A stretch of 33,969 nt of DNA. Origin: Candidatus Methanoplasma cognatum. GTDB lineage: Archaea > Thermoplasmatota > Thermoplasmata > Methanomassiliicoccales > Methanomethylophilaceae. Both the position numbers and the translations under genes were made by a program. This document shows, piece by piece, positions 26,077 through 33,969 of this stretch. Below the pieces are notes generated by a model, which had not been told where the DNA came from, ran no database searches, and saw only the letters and a list, made by a program, of their open reading frames with translations. Position 1 is the stretch's first letter. Every line of letters begins with the position of its first letter. The DNA is taken from positions 87,370 to 121,338 of the forward strand of contig WRLM01000005.1 in NCBI GenBank assembly GCA_009777615.1, in the 5' to 3' direction.

Positions 26077-29007
26077 ATGATGCACGAACCTGTGTTCCAG
26101 GATAGTTTTGAAGTAAACGTCTGGAAGAGGCTTAACTCCGAAAAGGACAGTGCATCGCAGAAGAGCGATTTTTTCATCGGCATCGCCAATAGCGTTATAA
26201 AACGCGAAAGATCCGCTAATTCCGCGATACTTTCGCTGCTCATTGAGAAACTATTCGAGACGCAGAGCAGCGGGATGGAGCCGCTCATCGACCAGCTTGT
26301 TTCCAAAAGCAGGCCTAATGACTGCATGCCGGCGCTGACGGCGGCCCTTGTCTATGCCGGTGTCGACAGGTGGGATAAGGCGGAAGAGATGGCGGAATCG
26401 GTGAAGCACGCTCAGAACATCCCCATGCTGGGATGCGTGAGGGCAAAGATAGCGATGGAGGCGGGCGATACCCCGAAGGCAAAGAAGGAACTGATGAGGG
26501 CAAGATGCAGCGACCCCGCTTTTCCTATGTTCTATGAGCTCATCCAGCAGGCGGAGCCGGCGGAAGGCTGGATGTACAGGCAGAACATCGAACTGCTGGC
26601 CGCCGGCAGGGAGCAGATACCCTTCGGCGATAACACCGGCTCCAATCCCGTTCAGAAGCTGTATGAGATCTACAGGGATTGGTACAAAGGTAGCAGGGAC
26701 GAGGCCACCGAAGCGATGATAAGGTCCGAAGAGTACAAGAAAAAGAATTCGGAGTATGTGCTAGCATCCGCCAGGATGTCCATGGACGAGAGAGACTGGC
26801 ACTCCGCTCAGATGATGTACACCTCCCTCCTCACAAAAAGCGCGAACTGCGTTTACATAATATGCGAGGCGGCCAAAGCGTTCTACTCCGGAGGGAACTT
26901 TGAGAAAGCGCTGTCCATGTACAGGGACGCGGAAGCACTGGACCCTGTTTCCCCATTGGTCATGAGAGGCTTGATCCAAACCTATTCGGCGCTGGGAATG
27001 AAAGCGGAAGCGGCGCAATGCGCGAAAGAATACCTGGACAGCGAGAACGCGGACCTTGCGGCATATGTCATGGGGGCGAAGGTGCTGTTCTCGAACTCCT
27101 TCTATGCGGACGCAGAGTCGGTGGTGGACAAGGTCCTCCTTTCCCATCCGGGCGATCCGAGCGCATTCGTTCTGAAATCGGAGATAGAGTTCGAGAGTGG
27201 GAACATAAACGCCGCCCTGAGGACGGTCCTGAACGGGGTCGATAAGAATCCAGACAATGCAGACGTCAGGCGTCAGAAGGCGAGGATACTGTTCAAGACA
27301 GGGAGGGCGGACAAAGCGGCGGCAGAACTGGAGAAAGCGGAGAAAGCAGACCCAGATAATGTGGGGGTGCTGCTTCTGATGAAGGACATCGCGATCGCCG
27401 GCGGAAAGAGCGAGGACGCCGTAAGGCTGAGCAACAGGATACTTCAGCTGGACCCAGGGAACGTCGACGCCATGAACACCCTGTCGAAGGCGAATCTTTC
27501 GGTGAAGAGAGAGGAGTCCTACTCCTCGTACAAGGACATGATGGTAGCAGACAACAGAGCGGAGAATTTCGTTAATGTCTTATCGTCCATGATCATCGAC
27601 GGCAAGTACAGGGAGGCGGTACAGATGTTCATCGAGAAGGAAAGGGAGTTCGGCAAGAATCCGGCGGTGAGGCGTTTGAAAGGGAACGCCGAGTATGCCC
27701 TGGGTAATTACAAAGAAGCATCCGCCGCCTTCGCATACGCTTCCGAGCTGGACCCGAAGGATCCGATGGCATGGCACTCGAAGGGCATGGCCGACGAGGC
27801 CATGGGCGACCTCAAGAATGCCGAAGAAGCTTACAACAAAGCCGTCCTTCTGGATATGAACGAACCGGAGTACTGGGTCTCGCGTTCTTCCATACAGGAG
27901 AAGAAGAAAGACCTGGCCGGGGCGGTCGAGTCCCTGAACAGGGTTATCGAACTCAGACCGGGCGACATATACGCGCTTGTGAAAAAGGGAATGATCTTCG
28001 CGGAGCTCGGAAGATTTGATGAAGCGCTTTATTATCTGGATATGGCGACGGTCACCGATCCTGATAACATCGAAGTGATGAGGATCAGGCGCGACGTGGG
28101 GATGGCCTCCGGTAATATCAAGGCGGCGGAGGAAGCGGCAGTGAAGCTGGTCGAACTGAGGCCCTTCGATGAGGAAGGGGTCGCCGCAGCGGTCAGGATA
28201 CTTATGCTCAATGGCAGGGACGAGGCCGCCGCAGGCCTGATAGAGAATGCGCTCAAGGCGGAGCCGTCCTCGATCCCTCTCCTCATAACCAAAAAGGAGT
28301 TCTGCACGCTGAGAGAGGACCACAGAGGGATAATCGAGGTCTGCCGCCGCATTTTGGCAGCACAGCCGGATAATAATCTGATCAGAAACGATCTCGCCGA
28401 AGCGTACGCGGCCACGGGCGATGTGAATGCGGCAAGCAGGATGTACATGGAGATCAGCCCCGCGGAAGATAAGGCCGAACAAAAACGCCAATATGCCCCC
28501 AAGGCACAGAAACAAAAAGTACCAGACACAATAAAAAGATATGCAGAAAGGGTCCTGAGGCGCGCATACATATCAAAACTCTCGCTGAGCGATCCGACGC
28601 TGGTCGAAGCGCTGGATATCGATGAGGCCACCGCCAGGGCCATAATGGCCTATCTCTCCGACATATCGGAATACGGCGACGTCAGCCCAGGAACACTGGA
28701 GTTCGAAAGGATGGAGAAGCTTTCGTTCAACGCGGTGACCAAAGGGAACTGCACGGGCCTGGAGAGCGAACCGCTGATAACGATACCCAGCGCGTATGTC
28801 GCCGGCGGGGCGAAGGATGCGGACGAAGCGAAGTTACTGGTCGCCTACATGTATAAGGTGTTAAGCGCCAAAAAGTCGGCGAAAGCGCTCCCTCCGGATC
28901 TGAGGAAGATAGCGGAAGCAACCCAAAAGGACACATCCATTGAAGAAATAATGAAAGGGCACAAGATCGGAGCGTATCAGGCGAAGCTGGTCAAAGACAA
29001 CCTGTGA
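26077..29007 (+). CDS. Large TPR-repeat protein
   Basis: 976 residues. From about 230 to 800 it is a run of tetratricopeptide repeats (for example 'AKAFYSGGNFEKALSMYRDAEALDPVSP', 'NAEYALGNYKEASAAFAYASELDPKDP', 'MIFAELGRFDEALYYLDMATVTDPDN'), forming a superhelical scaffold for protein contacts. No signal peptide or TM segment, so cytoplasmic. The last 150 residues are a different alpha-helical part ('RYAERVLRRAYISKLSLSDP', 'IMKGHKIGAYQAKLVKDNL'). The partner is unknown. ATG 26080 is an equal alternative start; a TATA-like gatttatct (26046-26054) lies 23-31 bases upstream. Its stop directly abuts the truD stop (TGATCA at 29005-29010). Confidence 0.9.
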   Translation: MMHEPVFQDSFEVNVWKRLNSEKDSASQKSDFFIGIANSVIKRERSANSAILSLLIEKLFETQSSGMEPLIDQLVSKSRPNDCMPALTAALVYAGVDRWDKAEEMAESVKHAQNIPMLGCVRAKIAMEAGDTPKAKKELMRARCSDPAFPMFYELIQQAEPAEGWMYRQNIELLAAGREQIPFGDNTGSNPVQKLYEIYRDWYKGSRDEATEAMIRSEEYKKKNSEYVLASARMSMDERDWHSAQMMYTSLLTKSANCVYIICEAAKAFYSGGNFEKALSMYRDAEALDPVSPLVMRGLIQTYSALGMKAEAAQCAKEYLDSENADLAAYVMGAKVLFSNSFYADAESVVDKVLLSHPGDPSAFVLKSEIEFESGNINAALRTVLNGVDKNPDNADVRRQKARILFKTGRADKAAAELEKAEKADPDNVGVLLLMKDIAIAGGKSEDAVRLSNRILQLDPGNVDAMNTLSKANLSVKREESYSSYKDMMVADNRAENFVNVLSSMIIDGKYREAVQMFIEKEREFGKNPAVRRLKGNAEYALGNYKEASAAFAYASELDPKDPMAWHSKGMADEAMGDLKNAEEAYNKAVLLDMNEPEYWVSRSSIQEKKKDLAGAVESLNRVIELRPGDIYALVKKGMIFAELGRFDEALYYLDMATVTDPDNIEVMRIRRDVGMASGNIKAAEEAAVKLVELRPFDEEGVAAAVRILMLNGRDEAAAGLIENALKAEPSSIPLLITKKEFCTLREDHRGIIEVCRRILAAQPDNNLIRNDLAEAYAATGDVNAASRMYMEISPAEDKAEQKRQYAPKAQKQKVPDTIKRYAERVLRRAYISKLSLSDPTLVEALDIDEATARAIMAYLSDISEYGDVSPGTLEFERMEKLSFNAVTKGNCTGLESEPLITIPSAYVAGGAKDADEAKLLVAYMYKVLSAKKSAKALPPDLRKIAEATQKDTSIEEIMKGHKIGAYQAKLVKDNL

Positions 29008-30318
29008 TCAGTATCTGTTCATTTCCGATTTCATATATTCTCTTAAAAGGCATGTCGCATAATTCCCCTTCGTAAGGGAGAAGCTGACCTCGTATCCGTC
29101 GCCGGCGATCCTGTGCGACAGACCTGCCACGGGACACAGTATCTCCCTCCTGCTCCCCTTCGAACTGCAGTGCGGCAGCCCTGGGACAATGAAGTCCTTG
29201 CCGGAGATCCTCTCGTTTTCAATGACGGATCTCTCGATCTCTCCCATCTCTCCTTCCGCTATCCTGCTTTCGGAACCGAACAGCGATATGGTAACGAACG
29301 CCCTGCCCGATCTGACCTGTCTTGTCACAAGGTCAATGTTGTTCGGCGTCGTAGCGACAGGGTTCTCATGCTGAGGCACCCTGTTGGAATCCAGGGGGAT
29401 GACGACATCCCCCACTATGGGTCTGTTCAGAGGGATGCCTTTCCCCATACGTCCGCTGAGCATCCTGTTGAAAAGATATGACTGGTAGGCATGCACGAAC
29501 ATCATCTGGAGGTTCTTAGGGAGTTTTTCTATGGCCCCCTTCCAATCGTCTGGGTAAGAGACAATGTGTTCCACCATGATCTTCTCGAACGACAGCGAAT
29601 CCGGCATATCTTTCAGAAGGGAGGACCAGTCGCCGTCTTCAGACAGGGCTCTTCTCGCGTCCGTGACATCCTCGTCCTCGAATGCGGACAGGTCCGAAAC
29701 ATAACTTCGGACAGCTCCTTCTATATCTCCTCTGACTATGGATTCGCCGACCTTATGCGTTATCGGCCTGACAGATCCGAACCTCTGCACTCCGAAATAG
29801 TTCGGAAAGCCCCCCTTATCCTTCACGGCCGAGGAAACGGCGTCAAGGGTCTCAGAGATGTCGTTCTCCGGGACAGTGCACTCTCTGACCCTGACCGCAA
29901 ACGAATTCCCCAGCAGGTCCCCGATCTGAACCCCTCTTTTTGCAGTGTATGGCTCTTTGATCTCCACATCCTTGAGGGAGATCCTTTTCATAGAATCGAT
30001 GGGGCATTCGAAGGACATTAGCTGCGTCGTCACCGCTCTTTTGTCCTTTGTCCCGGCAAAGCCTATCTTTTCGCGGGATATGCCGAGGCCTCTCGAAAGC
30101 AGTCTTACGAGGCGGTTCGTTTCCCAATTCCTGCTGGTAACTTCTGCGATAACGAACCTTCCGTCCGCAGCGGCCTCAGGTCTGTCCGATATCTCTTTTA
30201 CAACAAAATCCTCCGGCTCTTTTTTGAGACGTCCGCCGGTCCCGTCCGTGTCGCTCAGGTAGAAGGACATGCCGATGTCCGCTTCGGCGGTGCGGCATTC
30301 CCTGTACGGGCCGTTCAT
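29008..30318 (-). CDS. truD: tRNA pseudouridine synthase TruD
   Basis: 436 residues, the archaeal length. It makes pseudouridine at position 13 of tRNA. TruD signature 'IGFAGTKDKRAVTTQ' with catalytic Asp92, 'GNSFAVRVREC', 'GGFPNYFGVQRFGS' and 'HAYQSYLFNRMLS', with the large archaeal insertion domain in the middle. The ATG overlaps the rpoL stop by 4 bases, so it is translated together with RNA polymerase subunit L. The preceding residues before 'FYLSDTDGTGGRLKKEPEDF' are not conserved, so a later Met (17) could also serve as start. Confidence 0.95.
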   Translation of the reverse strand: MNGPYRECRTAEADIGMSFYLSDTDGTGGRLKKEPEDFVVKEISDRPEAAADGRFVIAEVTSRNWETNRLVRLLSRGLGISREKIGFAGTKDKRAVTTQLMSFECPIDSMKRISLKDVEIKEPYTAKRGVQIGDLLGNSFAVRVRECTVPENDISETLDAVSSAVKDKGGFPNYFGVQRFGSVRPITHKVGESIVRGDIEGAVRSYVSDLSAFEDEDVTDARRALSEDGDWSSLLKDMPDSLSFEKIMVEHIVSYPDDWKGAIEKLPKNLQMMFVHAYQSYLFNRMLSGRMGKGIPLNRPIVGDVVIPLDSNRVPQHENPVATTPNNIDLVTRQVRSGRAFVTISLFGSESRIAEGEMGEIERSVIENERISGKDFIVPGLPHCSSKGSRREILCPVAGLSHRIAGDGYEVSFSLTKGNYATCLLREYMKSEMNRY

Positions 30319-30569
30319 TGCTTTACCGTTGCAAAATAGGCGGATATTGCTTTGGAGGCCTTCTTCACCGCGTCCTCAGGCTTTCCTTTGCTGACTTCCA
30401 CATGTAAAACGGCGTCGGACAGCTCCGGGTGGTGGTTTATGTATCTCACCAAATTGACGTTTTTGTCATCGCTGAGCATCTTCATCATAAGCTCTATGAT
30501 CGTCGGGTCCTCGCCGGTGAATCCGAGCGTTATCGTCTTATCTGTCTTTTCGACGGTATAGACTTCCAT
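30315..30569 (-). CDS. rpoL: DNA-directed RNA polymerase subunit L
   Basis: 84 residues, the usual size of archaeal Rpo11/RpoL, which pairs with RpoD in the assembly platform of the polymerase. 'GEDPTIIELMMKMLSDDKNVNLVRYINHHPELSDAVLHV' matches the RpoL core ('EDHTLLNLL...L......AAY...HPLL....L.+'), followed by a final helix 'PEDAVKKASKAISAYF'. It is first of the pair rpoL-truD. A TATA-like ctttattat on the minus strand (about 30589-30597) is 20-28 bases before the ATG, which suggests a leaderless message. Confidence 0.9.
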   Translation of the reverse strand: MEVYTVEKTDKTITLGFTGEDPTIIELMMKMLSDDKNVNLVRYINHHPELSDAVLHVEVSKGKPEDAVKKASKAISAYFATVKQ

Positions 30570-30609
30570 GCGTTGCGATTACGATACGAATAATAAAGTT
30601 TTCGTAAAC

Positions 30610-30644
30610 GCGGCTTCTCCTCCTTCTGAGAGGAGGAGCTCCGC
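30610..30644. other. Long hairpin upstream of rpoL
   Basis: CTCCTCC (30617-30623) pairs with GGAGGAG (30632-30638) over an 8-base loop, and flanking GCGG (30610-30613) pairs with CCGC (30641-30644). It is beyond the rpoL TATA box, so it is not in that transcript. The 30570-31265 stretch holds this hairpin, TATA-like sequences and no gene that I can support. Confidence 0.4.
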
Positions 30645-31198
30645 ACTTATAGGACATACCTAGTCCGTTTTTATGATTCTGCGTATCGGAACATAAGCAG
30701 GCTGGAGGATATTTTTCCCATGAGCCATCCGGGCAGCAGTTTTTCAAAATCTCAGATGTCTGGTTTTCCGTCATAAGAGTATGGCGCCTTCTCAGCCGGA
30801 AAGTGACGTGCGTATGAATGTCTTTACTGAAGATGTGCCAAAACCTCTTGTCAGTATATAGTGGGATTCTGTTGTCAACCGAAACCTATGAGAAAATCCC
30901 TATAACTTTCGGCTGAAAACCTATATTTCAATAAATATATACCTGCAACTGAAACAATATAAAATTTGAAGATACATTTAAATATGCCAGATGGAGAATG
31001 ACAAAGTTAAATGGAGAGAAAGTAAGGAAAGAGTAGGAACGTGATCACATATAACTGTTTTGATGCGGGAGTGTTCTTTCAATCCCTTGTATTTTCACAT
31101 AACGCTTTTTTTAAAGCATAGGCCGCGCTAAACGATGAAAACCGCTGAAATCTATTGAAAAAAGACGGGATCAAAGGTCGTATAGTTGCATCCAACAG

Positions 31199-31260
31199 AA
31201 CCTATATATATTATAGTCATGGTTGTTTCAAGCAAACTGTTTATATAATAGTGGAGGAGA
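31199..31260 (+). promoter_or_regulatory. Promoter and RBS of the esterase gene
   Basis: Two TATA-like stretches lie at 31202-31214 (ctatatatattat) and 31240-31250 (tttatataata). GGAGGAGA at 31253-31260 is 5 bases before the ATG, so a leadered transcript from the first box is more likely than a leaderless one from the second. Confidence 0.5.
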
Positions 31261-31265
31261 ACACA

Positions 31266-33969
31266 ATGAAGAGTATAAGCGTATTAGCGTTAGCTATCAC
31301 GCTGGTTACGGTTTGCGTTTGTGCTGCATACGAGATGGGGGCGTTCAGCAAAGATGTTAATTCCACCAGTGTTCAAGACGAAGAATCACTCATACCCATT
31401 CCATATCCAAGGCTCAGCACTGATGATAATTACACCAGTGTTCAAGCTGATTTTAATGGGTCGGCGACTGGCGGTTATGCCGATGAAGGCAGTTTAGACC
31501 GCAAAAACCAACCACACAACCTCGCCGCAGCGATCGGCGAAAATGGTAATTCGTGGTTCCAATACAATGGAGCGATGGATTTCACAGCACAGAGTAGTTA
31601 TACTTTTGATCTTGTGAGGGGTAACAACCTGACCAAGGTCGGGGAGTATACGATTGTTTATAACAACGACACCGAAGAGTTCACGATATTCTTCAATGAT
31701 ACGATATCGGTCAGTAAAGCAGATATGTCTATTTCTAATAATATGCAGGCCTTTAAGAACAAAAACGACAAAGGCTTCGACAGCAGTTATATCTGGACAT
31801 CATCACCGGGCCAGCAACAATTCAGTTTCAAAGGTTCTTTTTACACCTTCGAGGCCCCCTGGGTGACCGATCTGACGAGTGTTAACGTCTACATCAACGT
31901 TGATGGTATCAAGGGCGATAAGAACTCCTACATTATCCCCGGACACTACGTATTCAAAATAGACGGGATCACTTATGACCTGGAGGTACCTGCACAAATC
32001 CGCGGATTTATCATTGATATGCACGGCGCCACCATGAATGCCACCCAGGAGAACAACGGAACCAACCTGCGCGAGATAGGAAGCAGAGAGGGATATGTCG
32101 TTCTTCAACCGTCACTACCATCCAGTATGGTCACCCGCAATTTCGATGATTCGATGTTTGAGGTGATCAATCTCGTTGTCGATGCGCTCAACATAGACAG
32201 GAACCGCCTGCACATAACAGGCTTCTCCATGGGAGGAATGTTCACATGGCGCTCCATACACGACCATCCGGACTTCTATGCCTCAGCGGCTCCCGCGGGC
32301 GCAGCTTACAATGGTAACCTGGGATGCTTGTTCACCGGAGATGACATACCTCCGGTCGAGCTCCCGATACTGCAAATGCATGGAACGCAGGACTTTGTAT
32401 CGAACTTTGAATTAAACGGACTTCGCCAGAGCAATGCCGTGATAGATTCATGGAATATGGGCCCTGGCCTGATCATCGCAGGAGATGACACGTACACGCA
32501 CGCCCGCTACATAAACGAAAATGGGACCGTGTATGAGTTCATATATCACAGTTATTCATCTACTGCTCCCTTCGGATCGTCGGGCGTCACGGGTCACTGC
32601 TTCCCCGGAAGCACAGTTTACTATGACTCAGATAATCCCTTCCAAACATTCGCTTGCGAAGACGACGTTTCGTTCCACTGGGGAGAAGAGGTCGTAAAGT
32701 TCTTCAAGGCACACCCGAAGAACGAAGCGAAGACGACTGGATCGGTACTCGCAGACACATCACCCGGACATCATCTCTACACCTACGAAGGAATACTGTT
32801 CGATCTGGAGATCCCCGAACAGATCGAGGACGGCCAGGTAGGGTTGGTCCTCGATATGCACGGTCTCACCATGGATGCCGACATACAGAACAATGGAACG
32901 AACATGCGTGCGCTCGGACAGCAATACGGGTATGTCATACTCCAGCCGTCTGTGCCTACCAGGAACGTTACCATAAACTGGGATGAGCCTATATTCGAGA
33001 TGTTGGCCATCGTTGTAGATTCACTCAACATCGATGAGAACCGCATACATGCAACAGGATTCTCTCAGGGCGGAGCGTTCACTATGCGTGCCCTGCGTGA
33101 TCATTCCGACATCCTGGCATCGGTAGCCCCGCTGGCGACCGGAGCCGGAGCGGACGAGACAAGGTATGTTCCCTCCAAGGACAACATGCCCGAGATGGAG
33201 ATCCCGATCCTGTACATGATAGGAACCAAGGACTCAGTATATCCTCGCGGAATTGAGCTTTGGACGGCAATATCGGACACATGGGATATCGGCAACGGAG
33301 TACAGATAGCAGGAGACGATACTTTCACCCACACCCGCTATACCAATGCGAATGGAACTGTGTTTGAGATCTTCATGCATGACTATTCGTCCGGCGCACC
33401 GTTCCTTTACGGAGCTGTGGGCGGCCACTGCTTCCCCGGAAGCACTGTGTATTATGACCCGGAGAACCCCATATCATCTTTCGCTTGTGAGGGCGAGAAT
33501 TCGTTCATCATTGGTGAAGAGGTAATGAAGTTCTTCATCGCACACCCGAAGAATGAAGTGAAAGTGGGCCACCTGATAAAGGACAAGACTCCCGGACACC
33601 ACTATTTCGAGTACGACAGGGTCGGCTATGACGTGGAGATACCGGAACAGTTCCTTGATGGGCCGGTCGGATTGATCCTTGACTGCCATGGCAGCACAAT
33701 GGATGCCACCCAGGAGAACAACGGAACCAACCTGCGTGAGATCGGTGCCAGAGAAGGATACATAGTCCTTCAGCCTAACATCGCATCCAACCAGCAGATA
33801 CCCCCGACCTTTGACGACCAGCTGATGGAGGTCCTGAACCGTCTCGTCGCCGAACTCGGCGTGGACGAGAACAAGATCCACGTGACCGGATTCTCAATGG
33901 GAGGAAGGTTCACATGGCGTATGATCCGTGACCACTCTGACATCTTTGCATCGGCGGCACCCTCGGCCA
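31266..33969 (+). CDS. Secreted protein with tandem PHB-depolymerase/feruloyl-type esterase units (partial)
   Basis: Open from ATG 31266 to the window end, 901 codons, no stop. Signal peptide MKSISVLALAITLVTVCVCA, then about 200 residues of less clear, beta-rich sequence. Then three alpha/beta-hydrolase units of the PHB-depolymerase-like esterase type follow, spaced 277-279 residues. Nucleophile elbows: GFSMGG (Ser321), GFSQGG (Ser600), GFSMGG (Ser877). In units 1 and 2 the acid ('MHGTQDF', 'MIGTKDS') and His ('TGHCFPGS', 'GGHCFPGS') are present, so both look active; unit 3 is cut by the window edge. Each unit has 'DMHG/DCHG' for the oxyanion site. It is secreted or surface-bound; substrate unknown, maybe plant-wall or host-derived esters. 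Confidence 0.85.
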   Translation, partial: MKSISVLALAITLVTVCVCAAYEMGAFSKDVNSTSVQDEESLIPIPYPRLSTDDNYTSVQADFNGSATGGYADEGSLDRKNQPHNLAAAIGENGNSWFQYNGAMDFTAQSSYTFDLVRGNNLTKVGEYTIVYNNDTEEFTIFFNDTISVSKADMSISNNMQAFKNKNDKGFDSSYIWTSSPGQQQFSFKGSFYTFEAPWVTDLTSVNVYINVDGIKGDKNSYIIPGHYVFKIDGITYDLEVPAQIRGFIIDMHGATMNATQENNGTNLREIGSREGYVVLQPSLPSSMVTRNFDDSMFEVINLVVDALNIDRNRLHITGFSMGGMFTWRSIHDHPDFYASAAPAGAAYNGNLGCLFTGDDIPPVELPILQMHGTQDFVSNFELNGLRQSNAVIDSWNMGPGLIIAGDDTYTHARYINENGTVYEFIYHSYSSTAPFGSSGVTGHCFPGSTVYYDSDNPFQTFACEDDVSFHWGEEVVKFFKAHPKNEAKTTGSVLADTSPGHHLYTYEGILFDLEIPEQIEDGQVGLVLDMHGLTMDADIQNNGTNMRALGQQYGYVILQPSVPTRNVTINWDEPIFEMLAIVVDSLNIDENRIHATGFSQGGAFTMRALRDHSDILASVAPLATGAGADETRYVPSKDNMPEMEIPILYMIGTKDSVYPRGIELWTAISDTWDIGNGVQIAGDDTFTHTRYTNANGTVFEIFMHDYSSGAPFLYGAVGGHCFPGSTVYYDPENPISSFACEGENSFIIGEEVMKFFIAHPKNEVKVGHLIKDKTPGHHYFEYDRVGYDVEIPEQFLDGPVGLILDCHGSTMDATQENNGTNLREIGAREGYIVLQPNIASNQQIPPTFDDQLMEVLNRLVAELGVDENKIHVTGFSMGGRFTWRMIRDHSDIFASAAPSA

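Follow-up and report, generated by a model that had tools for sequence, protein, structure and literature searches.

The window, i.e., the whole stretch of 33,969 nucleotides of Candidatus Methanoplasma cognatum considered here (G000:C5:87370-121338), ends within a multi-catalytic esterase gene whose open frame carries at least two complete catalytic units. In this order, methanogens are regarded as terminal consumers of hydrogen and methyl compounds; to our knowledge, this organism is not known to digest polymers, and a multi-unit esterase is unusual there. The explanation that we favor, and to which we give an even chance, is that a single very large gene, split by the assembly, codes for a chain of serine-esterase units that is exported and remains attached to the cell surface or close to it, where it would act on esters of gut polymers. 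If this is true, certain methanogens of insect guts would directly target polymers or their neighbors' surfaces.

The ATG at position 31266 opens the last open reading frame of the window, and the frame remains uninterrupted up to the last base. Contig C5 is 121338 bases long, so that the end of the window is the end of the contig and the gene is truncated by the assembly rather than by the choice of the window. In the encoded protein, a hydrophobic N-terminus and a region of ~175 residues precede two complete esterase units and one half unit, laid out as follows:

31253..31259, + strand: GGAGGAG, a ribosome-binding-like sequence upstream of the ATG, read from the sequence
31266..33968, + strand: 5′ part of the giant multi-unit esterase gene (901 residues), running off the contig end
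31275..31328, + strand: hydrophobic N-terminal segment (~residues 4-21), a putative export signal or anchor, from hydropathy
31443..31964, + strand: N-terminal region (residues 60-233) common to adhesin-like proteins of two congeneric genomes, from a sequence match, without a Pfam family
31923..32723, + strand: esterase unit 1 (Ser 32226-32228, Asp 32391-32393, His 32595-32597), from motifs, unit alignment and profile
32745..33554, + strand: esterase unit 2 (Ser 33063-33065, Asp 33231-33233, His 33426-33428), from motifs, unit alignment, profile and model
33573..33968, + strand: esterase unit 3, truncated at the contig end after its first half (Ser 33894-33896), from motifs, unit alignment and profile

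The preliminary description had reported three units in tandem, each with a G-x-S-x-G elbow, and full triads in the two complete ones. This observation is confirmed: the units start at residues 224, 500, and 776, the elbows lie at residues 319, 598, and 875 and read GFSxG in each unit, and the GTxD (Asp) and GHCFPG (His) motifs are found in both complete units of the window. The spacing of about 278 residues given at that time came close to the measured period of 276. An alignment was built from ten unit sequences of two genomes, the window's own and a second one (G014) whose frame holds three complete units. Pairwise identity among the ten ranges from 42 to 72%; the catalytic Ser is present in all of them, and the Asp, the His and two Cys, one of which stands directly after the catalytic His, are present in all nine complete units. 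Since every complete unit keeps the Ser-Asp-His triad and the Cys pair, all complete units are probably active and disulfide-stabilized. Against the unit profile, of which all three are also members, the window units scored E-values of 2e-67 to 4e-148; these matches, together with the independent match of the protein to solved esterases, indicate that the esterase assignment is not due to chance.

Searched against the PDB, the unit profile matched LC-Est1C, a thermostable esterase, and PHB, feruloyl and acetyl-xylan esterases. The nearest solved relatives in sequence are the C-terminal domain of LC-Est1 (3wyd, E 1.8e-13) and the thermostable esterase 3doh (E 1.5e-9), each ~20-24% identical to the unit over the fold; in both, the solved chain has a single catalytic domain. 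A model of unit 2, computed from six sequences, is of moderate confidence (mean pLDDT 66.8, pTM 0.73), and its residues 215-255, which include the catalytic His and both Cys, have a pLDDT below 50. The best structural match of this model was the PHB depolymerase of Lihuaxuella thermophila (8daj, 9byu), a single-unit enzyme with 18% identity, at Z 18.9 over 222 residues and 3.4 Å for 8daj. The acetyl xylan esterases 9j07 and 5x6s followed with Z 17.7 and 17.2 and the feruloyl esterases with Z 16.6-16.8, within a range of Z 14.5-18.9 among the 50 matches listed. From this fold and from the Ser-Asp-His triad with its G-x-S-x-G elbow, the units are predicted to be alpha/beta-hydrolase serine esterases. 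Because the PHB, acetyl xylan and feruloyl matches differ by no more than about two Z units, the fold leaves the substrate class unreadable.

The top structural match, taken by itself, would suit an extracellular PHA/PHB depolymerase using storage polymer released by gut bacteria, as would the best NCBIfam matches, NF050058 (scl PHA depolymerase, cut-off 150 bits) and TIGR01840 (cut-off 107.85 bits), grouped here as PHB depolymerase family esterases. The whole window protein indeed passes both cut-offs (155 and 116.6 bits, respectively), but each pass results from three unit scores combined. Scanned one by one, eight units reached at most 66.4 bits for NF050058 and 47.6 bits for TIGR01840, the single-unit gene C1a reached 65.8 and 53.6 bits, and a genome-wide search gave no single match above the TIGR01840 cut-off. 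The family name “PHB depolymerase” was rejected for this reason. With single units at 50-66 bits against 150 and 38-54 bits against 107.85, with feruloyl and acetyl xylan esterases matching the fold almost equally, and with no PHB-binding domain recognized in a domain scan of the window and C4 parts, we regard a PHA/PHB depolymerase as quite improbable.

The rest of the gene is probably to be found on another contig. C4 begins within a 946-residue frame that has no start; this frame covers the tail of one unit, a complete unit, four Ig-like domains of the Big_3 type and a final unit, and closes with a normal stop. Next after this stop lies a gene for a 190-residue TlpA-like thioredoxin, followed on the opposite strand by a DNA ligase gene (named from its translation). 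The corresponding anchor on the window side is truD:

29008..30318, − strand: truD, window-side anchor of the synteny, outside the esterase gene

truD lies 3.7 kb before the end of C5 and the ligase gene 3.8 kb after the start of C4, in the orientation expected for joined contigs. Both genes are on one contig in 13 of the 16 other genomes of the genus, close and co-oriented in every one of these, with 304 to 4655 bases between the two matches; of the three remaining congeners, two have them on separate contigs and one yielded no ligase gene. This synteny across the genus argues for the joining of C5 and C4 and would place the esterase in a truD-ligase spacer that holds other genes in other species. 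The unit profile stands at positions 132 and 230 at the two contig ends, so that ~97 missing residues would complete unit 3. The two parts are probably one gene, whose protein, with the gap filled in this way, would have five units and ~1,940 residues; a larger number of units is possible.

Further units beyond the window, which the preliminary description had foreseen, were found in this way. Far from an early stop or poorly aligning units, the probable continuation carries more units and a normal stop; the anchor that the same description had sought in the rest of the gene did not appear, as hydropathy revealed none at the C-terminus of the C4 part. The first 55 bases of C4 (L008:1-55) consist of a short loop flanked by a perfect inverted repeat of 20 bases, probably an assembly artefact. 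An apparent loss of the catalytic His from the truncated unit with which C4 begins was rejected, since the repeat makes that residue untrustworthy.

The gap between C5 and C4 could hold a stop and a new start, in which case the locus would consist of two or more separate tandem multi-unit esterase genes. Such an arrangement would recall the two single-unit esterase paralogues that lie side by side, as separate genes, on contig C1 of the same genome. We consider it unlikely, given that at both contig ends a long open frame breaks off within a unit, that a gap of ~97 residues is enough to join the two parts, and that the C1 genes each begin with an N-terminal hydrophobic (membrane) segment whereas no further one occurs along the window frame. 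The single-unit copies have a practical value, as they ease enzymology. Near both of them is a 600-codon frame of short Sel1-type-like repeats, recognized by eye (L009:11096-12898).

The case for a single exported chain at or near the cell surface draws on the N-terminal part of the window protein as well. Residues 60-233 have no family in Pfam and match large proteins, in frames of 912 and 942 residues, of two congeneric genomes; the region is ~60% identical over the shared stretch to the one of them that was aligned. Its fold model, from only two alignable sequences, reached a mean pLDDT of 50.2 and was set aside as too weak for a structure search. The matching proteins (L022:4296-7034 and L023:7342-10170) are surface-like and combine this common region with a SpaA-type domain, which is over the cut-off in one and under it in the other; we take their first part to resemble thioester-containing adhesin domains. 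Taken together, the open frame, the hydrophobic N-terminal segment, the fold and the triads bear out the giant, exported, multi-unit serine esterase in a methanogen that was proposed from the sequence at first sight. The link to the cell surface proposed along with it is strengthened by the N-terminal hydrophobic segment, the adhesin-like N-terminal region and the N-terminal membrane segments of the single-unit paralogues.

Big_3 was recognized on the C4 part in four stretches (73.6 bits, against a Pfam gathering score of 21.2), and the Pfam scan gave no Big_3 match on the window part. The first three domains correspond in order between C4 and G014 with 50 to 67% identity; the comparison covered these three, the pattern used having missed the fourth C4 domain. 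In a tree of the units, the last C4 unit pairs with the last G014 unit (100/99); the unit that precedes the Big_3 block on C4 pairs with the one that follows the block in G014 (98/94). These pairings point to a probable reshuffling, inside the gene, of units or of the Big_3 block. An adhesin-like N-terminal region followed by a Big_3 array is also what a surface adhesin might look like, in which the esterase units would serve mainly as binding or spacer modules and catalysis would be secondary or lost. The retention of the triad in nine of nine complete units, despite identity down to 42%, points instead to selection for catalysis and makes such an adhesin decidedly improbable.

If the C5 and C4 parts form one catalytically active chain, as we favor, its architecture would be an N-terminal export signal or anchor, then an adhesin-like domain, four or more esterase units, a series of four Ig-like spacers (Big_3) and a last unit. 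Many linked copies could raise both the local activity and the avidity toward a substrate that is insoluble or repetitive, with the Ig-like modules holding active units apart and the chain being tied to an adhesin-like head. The TlpA-like protein has an N-terminal hydrophobic segment and a CPDC motif; membrane-tethered and encoded by the neighboring gene, it would probably form or repair the disulfides of the units outside the cell. Its gene follows the esterase in both esterase-bearing genomes, and elsewhere among the 17 genomes of the genus only one marginal match of 18 bits was obtained.

Esterases with more than one domain per chain have precedents. A multidomain CE1 enzyme of Dysgonomonas mossii is described as having a carbohydrate-binding module between its two CE1 domains (PMC8040265); like the protein studied here, it comes from a gut microbe and has more than one alpha/beta-hydrolase esterase domain per chain with a non-catalytic module between them. 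In contrast, it has two domains, is bacterial, belongs to a polysaccharide utilization locus and has a measured activity; the comparison made here is one of domain layout. Fused CE6-CE1 acetyl-feruloyl esterases are described in Bacteroides ovatus and Flavobacterium johnsoniae, with synergy from the linkage for one of them (PMC7110780). Esterase domains are linked there too, but two different families are fused once, whereas the window protein repeats one family, in an archaeon. Linked two-domain esterases are, by these two accounts, known in gut bacteria (PMC8040265; PMC7110780). A literature search that covered few subscription journals yielded no multi-unit esterase in a methanogen and no example there of one family repeated at least five times; the word “esterase” is absent from the consulted passages of PMC10804542, PMC7883539, PMC9723798, PMC5011839, and PMC10684969.

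The genus Methanoplasma is described as found exclusively in arthropod guts (PMC10684969). This habit, the kinship within the genus and the MtaB match fit an insect- or millipede-gut methyl-reducing methanogen. In such a gut, the most likely substrates would be acetyl or feruloyl-type acyl esters of plant-derived polymers. The likely gain for the methanogen would be attachment to fiber and to its hydrogen-producing degraders, and/or the release of small products. Against this explanation, no glycoside hydrolase was seen among the few neighbor genes scanned, and the domain scan of the window and C4 parts recognized no polysaccharide-binding domain. The tethered enzyme might otherwise remove methyl esters at the cell surface, e.g., from pectin or methyl-esterified uronic acids, the methanol feeding the organism's own MtaB pathway. 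The genome does hold a full-length mtaB match (630 bits); MtaB is likewise matched in 14 of the 17 genomes of the genus, and because most of these relatives lack the esterase, this support is only permissive. We judge the release of methanol very improbable; if true, it would mean that the methanogen is not wholly dependent on other microbes for methyl groups.

The unit family is rare: among the 102 genomes searched in the taxonomic family, two contain it, that of the window and G014. It is absent from most close relatives, including the fully assembled congener G016 (1.49 Mb), which counts against our favored explanation of a surface-held esterase acting on gut polymers. A search of the phylum returned matches in 66 of 389 genomes, the window's own among them; the other 65 scored 58 bits or less and were taken for ordinary distant hydrolases. 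Only two records of a named genome collection matched the short peptide patterns used, which are insensitive to distant relatives. The 19 viral stretches that matched a peptide pattern included no relative, and the 37 plasmid records with distant matches, at best 27% identical and bacterial esterases, included no close donor. The G014 esterase gene also breaks at a contig end and is then followed by the same thioredoxin-like gene. It adjoins argG-like and argH-like genes (from translations), and the truD-ligase spacer of G014 measures only 304 bases; the G014 locus lies outside this spacer, so that the esterase-thioredoxin pair occupies different places in the two species. The spacer itself (window 29008-31265 and L008:2944-5555; L048, L049, L050, L051, L054, and L056) differs in length and content from species to species, which marks it as an insertion hotspot, and holds in other species transporter-like, ATPase-like and acetyltransferase-like frames, among others (from translations). 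On the window side, truD is adjoined by a gene for a 976-codon TPR-repeat protein (window 26077-29007), and a small frame of 84 codons beside truD is presumably rpoL.
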